From: Alphaproteobacteria bacterium
GTDB taxonomy: Bacteria > Pseudomonadota > Alphaproteobacteria > Micavibrionales > Micavibrionaceae
Assembly (NCBI GenBank): GCA_025451095.1
Contig: JANWLB010000070.1
Span: forward strand, 1-33,354
Direction: 5' to 3'
Length of the DNA stretch: 33,354 nucleotides
The notes under the pieces are model-generated. The model ran no database searches, was not told the origin of the DNA, and saw only the letters and a program-made list of their open reading frames with translations. The position numbers were made by a program, and so were the translations under genes. Of this stretch, positions 18,341 through 22,618 are shown one piece after another (within the stretch, counting starts at the first letter, position 1; each line of letters begins with the position of its first letter).

Positions 18341-19441
18341 ATGGGTTTTAACTGCGGAATCGTGGGCCTGCCGAATGTCGGCAAATCGACTCTGTTTAAC
18401 GCGCTGACGGCGACGGCGGCGGCGCAGGCGGCCAACTTTCCATTCTGCACAATCGAGCCGAACGTAGGCCGCGTGGCCGTACCGGATGAGCGGCTGGAGA
18501 AGATCGCGGCCATTGCCGGTTCTGCCAAGATCGTGCCAACGCAGCTCGAATTCGTCGATATTGCCGGACTCGTAAAGGGCGCCAGCAAGGGCGAGGGGCT
18601 GGGCAACCAGTTTCTGGCCAATATCCGCGAGGCGGCTGCCATCATTCATGTCCTGCGCTGCTTTGACGATCCGAATATCATTCATGTCGAAGGATCGGTT
18701 GACCCCGTACGTGATGCGGAGACGGTGGAGACGGAGCTGATGCTGGCCGATATGGACAGCCTGGCCAAGCAGATCAGTAATATTGAAAAGCGTGCCAAAT
18801 CGGGTGACAAGGAACTAAAGGCCCAGCTGGATTTCATGCTGAAAGTGAAAGAGGCGCTTGATGCCGGCAAGGCGGCGCGCACGGTGCCGGTGCCGGATGA
18901 TCAGCAGAAGACATTTCGCATGCTTCAGCTCATGACATCCAAGCCGGTTCTCTATGTCTGCAACGTCAAGGAAGAAGCGGCGGCCACGGGTAATGACTGG
19001 ACGAAGCAGGTTAAGACAATGGCGGATAAGCAGGGCGCGGGCTGTGTCGTGATCTGCGCCGCCATTGAAGCGGAAATCGCGCAGCTGGCGAGCGCCGAGG
19101 AAAAAGCCGAATTCCTGCAGACCATCGGACTGGATGAGCCGGGGCTGAACAAGATTATCCGCGAAGGCTACCGTATTCTCGGCCTGCAGACTTATTTCAC
19201 GGTGGGGCCGAAGGAGGCGCGGGCCTGGACAGTGCGGCGTGGCGCGCGCGCGCCCGAGGCGGCCGGAGCCATTCACACTGATTTTGAGAAAGGCTTTATC
19301 AAGGCCGAAGTGATCGCTATGAGCGATTTCACGGGTCTGGGCGGCGAGCAGCCCTGCAAGGATGCTGGCAAGATGCGGCAGGAAGGCAAGGAATACCTCG
19401 TTCAGGATGGCGACGTTATCCTGTTCCGGTTTAACGTCTAA
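18341..19441 (+). CDS. ychF: Redox-regulated ATPase/GTPase YchF
   Basis: 'CGIVGLPNVGKSTLFNALT', 'ANFPFCTIEPNVGRVAVPD', 'LEFVDIAGLVKGASKGEGLGNQFLANIREAAAIIHVLRCF'. Confidence 0.97.
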   Translation: MGFNCGIVGLPNVGKSTLFNALTATAAAQAANFPFCTIEPNVGRVAVPDERLEKIAAIAGSAKIVPTQLEFVDIAGLVKGASKGEGLGNQFLANIREAAAIIHVLRCFDDPNIIHVEGSVDPVRDAETVETELMLADMDSLAKQISNIEKRAKSGDKELKAQLDFMLKVKEALDAGKAARTVPVPDDQQKTFRMLQLMTSKPVLYVCNVKEEAAATGNDWTKQVKTMADKQGAGCVVICAAIEAEIAQLASAEEKAEFLQTIGLDEPGLNKIIREGYRILGLQTYFTVGPKEARAWTVRRGARAPEAAGAIHTDFEKGFIKAEVIAMSDFTGLGGEQPCKDAGKMRQEGKEYLVQDGDVILFRFNV

Positions 19442-19684
19442 GTCGTTCCGGTCTTTTCAGGGAATTTTATGCAGTCTCATAACGCTCAAAAGTTACTGAT
19501 TTCAAAAAGAATATTCCAGCCTTTGCCAAAAAGGAGACCCTCTTTTTTGTAGGCCCCCGGAAAAATGCAATGACAAAAGGGACCGAAAACCACTTTGCGT
19601 GGCCTGTTCATTTTGATTAACCTTTGACTATTTCGAGAGAAAAGGTAATTTTTATAAAAAATTTTCACTGCTAAAGCAGGTTGG

Positions 19685-20581
19685 ATGATGAAGCCCGGTT
19701 ATATCTATGTTTTAATGCATCCGTCTGACCCTAATCTTTACAAGATAGGGGTTACTATCCTTGAACCGAAGCAGCGATTGGCTCAACACAATAGAGATTT
19801 CTCTAAATACGCAGGACGTATTGTTAAAGAAACAGGTCAGAAATGGGAATTAAAAGAATACCATTATGTCCCTGACCCATATTTGGCAGAAAGTGCATTT
19901 TGGAGGACAACTAAATTCGTTGATATCCCATACCGATATGGGATTGAAGTCGAAAGAATGAGTTGGGAGGAAGTGCAAAGAGGATTGGAGGCTGCAAAGA
20001 AAGCCGGTCTTCGTTCAGAAAAGCGATCAACGCCTTTTTCAGACTGGGTTTATGCATACACAGCTTCAATGAAAAAACGATTGGAAGGTCGCGATATTAC
20101 TCTTTTAGGTTACGTGACGAGTAAAAGTGGAAAATCTAAATTTCGATGCAATAATGGTCACGAATGGCGAACACGATCAATGTATGTGGCAGAAGGCCAA
20201 GGTTGCCCTGAGTGCGGTATAGGCGAGAGGCATCCAGAGGAAATCAGAAAAAAGATAAATGCAGGAATCATCTGCCTGTTAACGCATCCTGATAAACCTG
20301 GATTAATAAAGATTGGGATGGGATGCGGCACAATAGAAGAGGTTTGTCGGGAATGGCCATGGGGCGACTGGGAGATACTTCACCATCGAAATGTCGAAGA
20401 AGTGGTTTTGGCTGAAACACTAATTTGGGAATTGTTGGGCCATCCTCTCCCTCATCACCGGGAGCCGATCGAAAAAGACTTGAATCTAGCAGAAGAAGCG
20501 TTTCGCAAATTGCCCTATGCGATACAAGCAGATATTGCCTTTAAGGAGAGGAGAAAAGAAAACCTCCAGAAGACTGGCTAA
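19685..20581 (+). CDS. Duplicated GIY-YIG-like (T5orf172/MUG113-type) protein with intervening zinc-ribbon
   Basis: N-terminal copy 'GYIYVLMHPSDPNLYKIGVTILEPKQRLAQHN...YLAESAFW'; zinc-ribbon 'FRCNNGHEWRTRSMYVAEGQGCPECG'; second copy 'GIICLLTHPDKPGLIKIGMG...VLAETLIWELLG'. Markedly AT-richer than neighbours. Confidence 0.7.
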   Translation: MMKPGYIYVLMHPSDPNLYKIGVTILEPKQRLAQHNRDFSKYAGRIVKETGQKWELKEYHYVPDPYLAESAFWRTTKFVDIPYRYGIEVERMSWEEVQRGLEAAKKAGLRSEKRSTPFSDWVYAYTASMKKRLEGRDITLLGYVTSKSGKSKFRCNNGHEWRTRSMYVAEGQGCPECGIGERHPEEIRKKINAGIICLLTHPDKPGLIKIGMGCGTIEEVCREWPWGDWEILHHRNVEEVVLAETLIWELLGHPLPHHREPIEKDLNLAEEAFRKLPYAIQADIAFKERRKENLQKTG

Positions 20582-20657
20582 ATTCAGGTGACTACAATTA
20601 GTTAGATTCAAAATTCAAGTTTAACTTAGCGGTCAGCCTATCCATAACATTTTATGA

Positions 20658-20686
20658 TTGACATATAAACCGTGCCTTTCTAAGGT
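20658..20686 (+). promoter_or_regulatory. Candidate sigma70 promoter for add
   Basis: TTGACA (20658-20663), 17-nt spacer, TAAGGT (20681-20686), upstream of ATG 20718. Perfect -35, weak -10. Confidence 0.35.
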
Positions 20687-20717
20687 ACTCCCGATAAAGT
20701 TAACAGGCGGGGAAACC

Positions 20718-21782
20718 ATGAAAATCAGTGATCCCATCAAACGGCTGCCCAAGGCGGAGCTTCATGTTCATATCGAGGGTACGGTAGTGCCGGCCATGGC
20801 GCGCCACAAGGCCGCCCAGCACGGTATAACGCTGCCCGACATATTCACGGACGGCCAAAGCGAATACAGCTATTGCGATTTCGTCGATGCCGTGACGCGC
20901 GTTTACGATGCTGTCGCCTCAACCATCCGCACCAAACAGGATTATACCGACATCACCTATGACTACCTGAAGCGCTGCGCCGCCGAGAAGGTGATCTATG
21001 TTGAGCTGATTGCCTCCGCCGATCATGCCACGCGAGTCAACCTGACATACAAAGACATGATCGATGGCATCGTAGAGGGTATCCTGAAAGCCCGCGCCGA
21101 AACGGACATCGAGGCGCGGATCAACGTGGCGCTGGTGCGTCATCTTCCCGAAGCCGAACTCGACCGTGCTACAGAAAACATCCTGACCTACCGCCATCCG
21201 TATATTGTCGGCGTCGATCTGGCCGGAGCGGAAAAAGAAGGCGATGTTCTGAGACACCTGAAATACATCCTGAAGATCAAGGAATCTTCAAACGGCGAAC
21301 TGGGCCTGAAACCTCATGCCTCGGAAGCGGCAGGGCCCATTAATACCTGGCATGCGCTGACCATGGAGCCGCAGCGTATCGGACATGGCGTGCGCAGTAT
21401 CGAGGACCCGCGCCTTGTGCGTGAACTGGCGCGGCGCGGGACAGTTCTGGAGGTCGCCCTGACTAGCAACGACAAAGCTGGCATCTATCCCGCATTAAAG
21501 GATCATCCGCTGCGTAAACTATATGATGCAGGCGTGAAGGTTACGTTGAATTCGGATGATCCGGGCCTGTTCAACTGCACCATATCCGACGAATACCAGC
21601 TGGCGCATGACAGGTTCGGCTTTACGCCGCCTGAGCTTCTGGGTGTAACCCGCACGGCAGTCGAAGCGGCGTTCGTTGATGAAAAGACACGCGCCAAACT
21701 TCTGAAGCGTGTGGATGAACACGATTTTTTTCCTAACCTGACTGCAATCGGGTCGCCCCAGTGGCGGCCGGGGCCGGGCTGA
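20718..21782 (+). CDS. add: Adenosine deaminase family protein
   Basis: 'RLPKAELHVHIEGTV', 'KPHASEAAGPINTWHALTMEPQRIGHGVRS', 'VTLNSDDPGLFNC'. Start set at ATG 20718, behind AGGCGGGGA. Confidence 0.9.
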   Translation: MKISDPIKRLPKAELHVHIEGTVVPAMARHKAAQHGITLPDIFTDGQSEYSYCDFVDAVTRVYDAVASTIRTKQDYTDITYDYLKRCAAEKVIYVELIASADHATRVNLTYKDMIDGIVEGILKARAETDIEARINVALVRHLPEAELDRATENILTYRHPYIVGVDLAGAEKEGDVLRHLKYILKIKESSNGELGLKPHASEAAGPINTWHALTMEPQRIGHGVRSIEDPRLVRELARRGTVLEVALTSNDKAGIYPALKDHPLRKLYDAGVKVTLNSDDPGLFNCTISDEYQLAHDRFGFTPPELLGVTRTAVEAAFVDEKTRAKLLKRVDEHDFFPNLTAIGSPQWRPGPG

Positions 21783-21786
21783 GCGT

Positions 21787-22536
21787 TCAGCCGGGCCCGT
21801 CAGGGCCTGAAGGAACGGATGCGACCTGGCGACGTTCCGCTGCCTCTGGCGCAGGATTTTCAGGTGCCTTGGCCATTGCTGCCGTATTGCTGTTGAAGGG
21901 GTCTGTGATCTGCGACGTTCTTACAGGCGCCGGGTCAGCGCCGCCCTTAAGCCTCGTGATAATGGAATCCCGGTTTACGGTGTAGCTGGCGAGACCTTTC
22001 GCCAGCGCGGAAGGTGAATCCGTCAGGTAATTCAGGACGGTCGCATCGCGCTGTATGTCTTCAGCCGGCGTGTTGCGATAGGCTCCGAGCTCCTCTGCCT
22101 GTCTGTCCGACATTTCCCCGTACATCTCGTTGTATTTCTGGTTTCTCAGAATTCGGTCGAAACCTTCAAGAGGCGTGGGCAGCATGGGCATGCGCCGTCC
22201 CGGGTCGCGCTGCGCGTCCATTCCCATTTGAAGATCCTGCAGGGCGCGGGCGGCGATCTGGCCGGGCGCCATTCCGGATTCCTTGTAATAGTCGATGCGC
22301 TCCTGGACATAGGTTTTCTGATCTTCGTTCATATGGTCGCCCCGGTATTTCAGGGCGTCCTCGGGCTCCAGTTCGATGGATTCATATTTGATGATGGCGT
22401 CCCTGATCCGGCTTTTGTCGGCGTCGCTGAAAGACAGCGTTCGTCCCCAGCGTTCCGCCTCGTGGGGCAGGGTGACGTTGAAATAGTAATCCGCAATTCT
22501 TTCGGGTGTTGCCCGGCTGCCCTCGGCGTCAGCCAT
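21787..22536 (-). CDS. Hypothetical protein, no recognised domain
   Basis: Long ORF with coding-like composition, convergent with add; Pro/Ala-rich C-terminus. No family recognised. Confidence 0.65.
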   Translation of the reverse strand: MADAEGSRATPERIADYYFNVTLPHEAERWGRTLSFSDADKSRIRDAIIKYESIELEPEDALKYRGDHMNEDQKTYVQERIDYYKESGMAPGQIAARALQDLQMGMDAQRDPGRRMPMLPTPLEGFDRILRNQKYNEMYGEMSDRQAEELGAYRNTPAEDIQRDATVLNYLTDSPSALAKGLASYTVNRDSIITRLKGGADPAPVRTSQITDPFNSNTAAMAKAPENPAPEAAERRQVASVPSGPDGPG

Positions 22537-22618
22537 GATTGCCCTCGCTACCTTATGTAATGTAGGGTAGGCGATAAACGTTAAAATTTGGGAAATAAGA
22601 GGGTTTTAACCTGAAGAA

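Follow-up and report, generated by a model that had tools for sequence, protein, structure and literature searches.

Evidence for a rare mobile gene family with a nuclease, zinc finger and dead-nuclease architecture, one member of which lies alone in an integrase-less insert at the 3' end of ychF

Within a 33,354-nt contig of an alphaproteobacterium of the Micavibrionaceae (JANWLB010000070.1; the whole of this stretch is referred to as the window), the gene for a 297-aa protein lies alone in a 1.18-kb insert whose ends match an integrase-bearing element of another genus. The gene belongs to a rare mobile family with an unusual architecture of nuclease, zinc finger and dead nuclease, an assignment that is well supported. 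Also new here is the observation that, in related genomes, two integrase elements lie between 18-nt repeats of the ychF 3' end and two single-gene inserts lie between similar repeats. The explanation towards which we lean is that the protein is a GIY-YIG DNA nuclease guided by its zinc finger, directed against phage or rival mobile DNA, and carried on an element without an integrase. The features on which this argument draws are the following.

18341 to 19441, plus strand: ychF, the host gene with the insertion site at its 3' end
19424 to 19441, plus strand: left attachment site, the last 18 nt of ychF (TTCCGGTTTAACGTCTAA)
19442 to 20625, plus strand: integrase-less single-gene insert, both ends of which match the 12.5-kb integrase-bearing element of G055, a genome of another genus
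19444 to 19515, plus strand: inner left end of the insert, sharing 80% identity over 72 nt with the G055 element beside ychF
19688 to 20581, plus strand: gene for the 297-aa protein, with a T5orf172/GIY-YIG domain, a treble-clef zinc finger and a degenerate GIY-YIG copy
19688 to 20023, plus strand: N-terminal half, residues 1-112, assigned a GIY-YIG/T5orf172 fold from Pfam, the alignment, the model and Slx1 matches in the PDB
20147 to 20215, plus strand: zinc finger C154-x3-H158 ... C173-x2-C176, DUF4379-like by Pfam and invariant ligands
20234 to 20578, plus strand: C-terminal half, residues 183-297, assigned as a second GIY-YIG-like copy from hhalign, the alignment and the models
20595 to 20625, plus strand: right end, matching that of G055 at 28 of 31 nt, with the core GTTTAAC at 20619-20625
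20718 to 21782, plus strand: add (adenosine deaminase), which adjoins ychF in relatives without the insert

At its longest, the open reading frame runs from an ATG at 19685 to a stop at 20581 and encodes 298 aa, as the initial annotation had described; because the homologues begin at the second ATG (MKPGYIYV, 19688), the start is moved to that position and 297 aa is taken as the length of the protein. The sharp drop in composition reported there is confirmed by G+C (43% for the reading frame, and 0.40-0.43 along it against about 0.55-0.59 on either side), by GC3 (0.38, against 0.53-0.71 in 18 other genes of the window) and by codon-usage divergence (0.356, against at most 0.158 in the other window genes, n=18); the codon usage of the gene is foreign. 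The single-gene island between ychF and add likewise stands, with bounds that are now tighter, from the ychF stop at 19441 to about 20625, and the 92 nt that follow belong to the upstream region of add. Positions 19442-20625 hold this one reading frame and no integrase, and no Rfam family, promoter excess or terminator was found at the insert. The earlier statement that the gene has no partner holds for the window, in which none was found; several homologues, however, are the final gene of an operon, with upstream genes that differ between them.

The ends of the insert connect it to the 12.5-kb ychF-ilvE interval of G055 (L124 1848-14356), in which a tyrosine integrase lies beside ychF and is accompanied by a Toprim protein, an AAA_25 ATPase and cargo that includes a homologue of the 297-aa protein. 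The last 18 nt of ychF bound the G055 element on one side and recur, with one mismatch, beside ilvE on the other; in its content the element resembles a satellite or integrative element. The identity of 28 of 31 nt at the right end compares with a minimum of 10 mismatches in 500 random sequences, and the left-end sequence of the insert has similar counterparts in G015 and G007 as well. A 7-nt crossover core, GTTTAAC, is proposed at 19429-19435. At the right repeat of the window this 7-nt core and 24 nt of shared inner flank are left, the chromosomal half having decayed, and short repeats inside the window interval are at chance level only. The empty site is seen in G021, G022 and G041, from three other genera, where the proposed comparison of synteny finds ychF directly before add, whose start is no more than about 20 nt from the stop of ychF. 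The end matches to G055, together with these empty sites, mark the insert as an element of about 1.18 kb with the 297-aa gene as its only content. A close copy of the G055 integrase was not found in the window's genome (about 85% complete), and a tyrosine-integrase remnant at the window site was discarded as a candidate on that ground. The insert would have been moved by an integrase supplied in trans, and it may no longer move, as no close integrase copy was found and the right repeat has decayed.

Throughout the window's family, ychF and an ilvE-like gene are convergent neighbours with a spacing of about 0 bp to 12.5 kb. The interval between them (19442-22618 in the window; loci L053-L091) is a variable insertion region that often holds one large gene without assigned function; add itself is patchy and rare, being present in 6 of 23 related genomes, yet it recurs in this interval in several genera. 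In G052, from another genus (L139 1323-2931), an integrase 79% identical to that of G055 and interrupted by a stop codon lies alone between two 18-nt repeats, while G040 (L077) and G039 (L076) each carry one main reading frame between copies of the ychF 3' end, of 544 aa in the former and 155 aa in the latter, neither with a Pfam or PADLOC match. The repeat of G039 spans about 84 nt. Across the 18 positions, the repeats of G055, G052, G040 and G039 show 1-2 mismatches, and no random sequence of 200 was as good; the G053 interval reached 4 mismatches and the remaining intervals 5-9, as set against resampled sequence. Tyrosine-integrase elements of the window's bacterial family use the 3' end of ychF as an insertion site. 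A tRNA was rejected as the insertion target, a scan of the ychF-ilvE intervals having found none. A defence island at ychF was also rejected, because the PADLOC matches there are mostly general helicases and adenosine deaminases, and the ychF intervals from the window's own family show no evident enrichment of defence genes by PADLOC. The literature searched yielded no description of ychF 3'-end elements in this family; pneumococcal prophages integrate beside ychF, at an unrelated site (PMC8637289).

Within the protein, Pfam matches residues 4-75 to T5orf172 (PF10544) at 44 bits, against a cut-off of 20, when the whole protein is scanned, and to GIY-YIG at 23.1 bits, against a cut-off of 22.6; the second half reaches 15.9 bits for T5orf172, below the cut-off. 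The DUF4379 treble-clef finger at residues 149-176 scores 25.2 bits when scanned alone and 21.7 bits in the whole-protein scan, against a cut-off of 24.5. NCBIfam gave no match, and the nearest PHROG families are 'endonuclease' and 'HNH endonuclease'. Conservation was scored on an alignment of nine full-length homologous sequences, in all of which Y7, K19, R30, H34, N35 and E68 of the first half, the zinc ligands C154, H158, C173 and C176, and E243 (in LAE) of the second half are invariant; Y18, the second tyrosine, in the YIG motif, is replaced in three of the nine. In the T5orf172 nuclease of ICP1, it was that protein's conserved glutamate that was picked for mutation (PMC8263062; PMC10448857). 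Of the catalytic Tyr, Arg and Glu, the C-terminal half, which ends in a long helix, retains the Glu alone. The initial annotation had placed the protein in the GIY-YIG superfamily, and this is borne out by Pfam for the first half and by a profile comparison that ties the second half to the first; the C-x3-H / C-x2-C ribbon that it had seen between the halves corresponds to the DUF4379 match with its invariant ligands. Its proposal that the first copy keeps the Tyr, Arg and Glu is upheld by the conservation of Y7, R30 and E68; Y18 is not conserved. The second copy does appear degenerate while keeping its Glu, as it has no counterpart of R30, H34 or N35, and residue conservation supports the suggestion of one active and one degenerate domain. 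Judged from its residues, the N-terminal GIY-YIG domain is probably active.

The relationship of the two halves, which had also been proposed, agrees with profile comparison: the profile of residues 1-112 matches that of residues 180-297 at 97.5% (hhalign; E 5.8e-12 for that single comparison), with a 14-residue alignment gap in the second half over the helix that holds R30, H34 and N35. On sequence profiles, then, the halves are homologous and represent an internal duplication. A fold model built on homologous sequences (pLDDT 84, pTM 0.58) predicts two similar strand-strand-helix-strand-helix modules, in which strands and helices follow in similar order. Among the PDB matches listed, Slx1 GIY-YIG nucleases have the highest Foldseek probability (0.69-0.82), with weak E-values, and viral T5orf172 and treble-clef proteins match more strongly, with E down to 1.6e-7. 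A PDB sequence search with the protein returned nothing convincing. For the second half modelled by itself, no match of the fold search against the PDB was decisive, so that its assignment relies on topology and sequence profiles. Pairwise dN/dS lies in the range 0.10-0.22 for the full protein and 0.13-0.29 for the second half, the latter range indicating that the dead copy is under constraint; purifying selection acts on all three parts of the protein, both halves included.

The family is thinly spread. A pattern search of bacterial and archaeal genomes found six loci, in a Rhodospirillaceae MAG (69%), two Polynucleobacter, a Paludibacter MAG, a Deltaproteobacterium and Methylophilus, and viral contigs contributed three more, all of the Polynucleobacter phage group; the closest full-length homologues are those of the Rhodospirillaceae MAG, Polynucleobacter and Paludibacter. 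Within the window's order, the gene is present in just 2 of 142 genomes, each time in the ychF-ilvE interval, and 384 other genomes drawn from the class gave no match at E 1e-20. At least part of the gene is present in 7 of 186 Polynucleobacter genomes. Plasmids gave no homologue, and annotated phages gave partial matches only, at 27-46% identity and with a best coverage of 48%. The homologue in G055 consists of the zinc finger and second half, its N-terminal nuclease half having been lost, and is coupled to another gene. Conversely, Polynucleobacter G556 and G525 encode the first half alone, at 121-128 aa, with Y7, R30, H34 and E68 retained. These stand-alone first halves (L120 4990-5630, L121 4655-5570) each adjoin a 92-aa single-pass membrane protein, whose gene overlaps in G556 and is divergent in G525. 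At a further locus (L003 3660-4919), the homologue lies head to head with the gene for a 419-aa protein that contains repeated segments and whose C-terminal end is GIY-YIG-like. The suggestion that the architecture was undescribed agrees with the literature searched, in which no description of the nuclease, zinc finger and dead-nuclease arrangement was found; the nine full-length sequences show, however, that it is not unique to the window.

In Polynucleobacter prophages, homologues occupy the final position of inserts between terL and portal, 12 nt downstream of PDC-S46 or 31 nt downstream of a gene for a 565-aa membrane protein. The size of this slot varies from 52 bp to 5.9 kb across the related phage contigs, and L190 and L194 are empty alleles. 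The terL-portal gap (L145-L222) is hypervariable, with many known or candidate defence genes and further genes without assignment: among 41 distinct slot proteins scanned there are matches to AriA, AriAB, AbiL, AbiO, AbiD, Old, Nhi, GajA, PDC-S46 and PDC-M53, and to the domains TIR, AbiV, RloB, DUF3800 and Schlafen. Other homologues lie near PDC-M04A and PD-T7-4-like genes. For the 297-aa protein itself, PDC-S57 is the one PADLOC model family matched at E<=0.01, over about 35 residues. The literature lists a GIY-YIG nuclease for two defence systems, PD-T4-3 and PD-lambda-1 (PMC10952713), and describes a T5orf172 nuclease by which phage ICP1 is protected from a satellite (PMC8263062). Because close relatives sit among anti-virus genes in viruses of other bacteria, the 297-aa protein is probably a DNA-targeting defence enzyme; its nuclease activity, its target and its role in defence are what we infer, the last by association and mainly from one slot (terL-portal) in one phage group. 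In the explanation that we favour, the N-terminal GIY-YIG/T5orf172 domain would cut or nick DNA, and the zinc finger and dead GIY-YIG copy would bind and select the target, guided by DNA sequence or structure, or may instead hold a second copy of the protein. The gene would most likely act as an accessory defence gene against invading phage or rival mobile DNA, having been brought to the ychF 3' end by horizontal transfer, on a short element that lacks an integrase and holds no other gene. More tentatively, the zinc finger and dead copy could form a portable targeting module that works with varied effectors, namely the nuclease half in cis here and a separate 203-aa protein in G055; the family would then spread between bacteria and phages as defence cargo, and in the window's bacterial family the single-gene inserts at the ychF end would borrow the integrase of larger elements.

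The main rival to the defence enzyme, which we consider rather unlikely, is a free-standing homing endonuclease that cuts alleles lacking its gene and is copied into them by repair, the bacterial copies being strays. A position between terL and portal is typical of such genes, most phage T5orf172 proteins are taken to be homing endonucleases whose DNA-binding domains are zinc fingers, a terminase gene occurs in 35% of phage T5orf172 neighbourhoods (PMC10448857), and the two closest PHROG families are endonucleases by name. However, only two kinds of allele in the terL-portal slot carry the gene, each behind a different upstream gene, and the slot contains defence genes and is variable in its absence as well. 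Further, the window gene would have moved with a tyrosine-integrase attachment site and not by homing, and the homologues on chromosomes of unrelated bacteria would have little opportunity for homing. Less probable again is a DNA-binding regulator or interference protein resembling CapR of phage satellites, in which the GIY-YIG domains would serve as scaffolds with no nuclease action. The satellite repressor CapR and the zinc-finger parts of T5orf172 proteins are related (PMC10448857), and both the G055 homologue, coupled to another gene and without the nuclease half, and the variable Y18 of the YIG motif would suit such a role; the invariance of Y7, R30, H34 and E68 in the nine full-length homologues, and their retention in the lone N-terminal halves, argue against it. 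Vertical inheritance of an ordinary family gene between ychF and add, to which the shared ychF-ilvE interval of the order's only other carrier might point, is highly improbable and was rejected on the patchy presence within the order, the foreign codon usage and the empty sites, the closest full-length homologues lying in the Rhodospirillaceae MAG, Polynucleobacter and Paludibacter and element ends being present in both carriers. The same low frequency in the order, codon usage and adjacency of ychF and add in three other genera sustain the horizontal acquisition put forward in the initial annotation, and the vertical conservation with normal codon usage that it had named as the contrary case was not seen.

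The gene would add a conserved nuclease family that keeps an inactive copy of its cutting domain under selection beside an active one, and would make it testable whether dead nuclease domains act as target readers. The ychF 3' end is defined here as an insertion site for the gain of single genes without an integrase of their own, and new defence genes may be sought in the terL-portal slot of Polynucleobacter phages.

Several known systems resemble parts of this arrangement. The PADLOC candidate PDC-S57 is like the 297-aa protein in its match to the N-terminal 35 residues (24 bits), but the rest of the model is unmatched and PDC-S57 is itself only a candidate. PD-T4-3 and PD-lambda-1 likewise contain a GIY-YIG nuclease (PMC10952713), although the 297-aa protein has no PADLOC match to their models at E<=0.01. 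The insert recalls cis-mobilizable elements (CIMEs), which have the attachment sites of integrase elements as flanks and no integrase; it differs in having one gene and a decayed right repeat, and its movement is one that we infer. Odn (Gp88) of ICP1 is similar in combining a stand-alone T5orf172 nuclease domain with a separate DNA-targeting part and in serving in conflict between mobile elements (PMC8263062), but it targets via a RepA-like N-terminal domain, and no second GIY-YIG copy has been described for it. Phage T5orf172 proteins (PF10544; PHROG 681) share the T5orf172/GIY-YIG domain, the DUF4379-type finger and homologues beside terminase genes. Unlike these, the present family occurs on bacterial chromosomes, with no full-length match in annotated phages, and it places the nuclease first, followed by one finger and then by a T5orf172 copy that appears catalytically dead.
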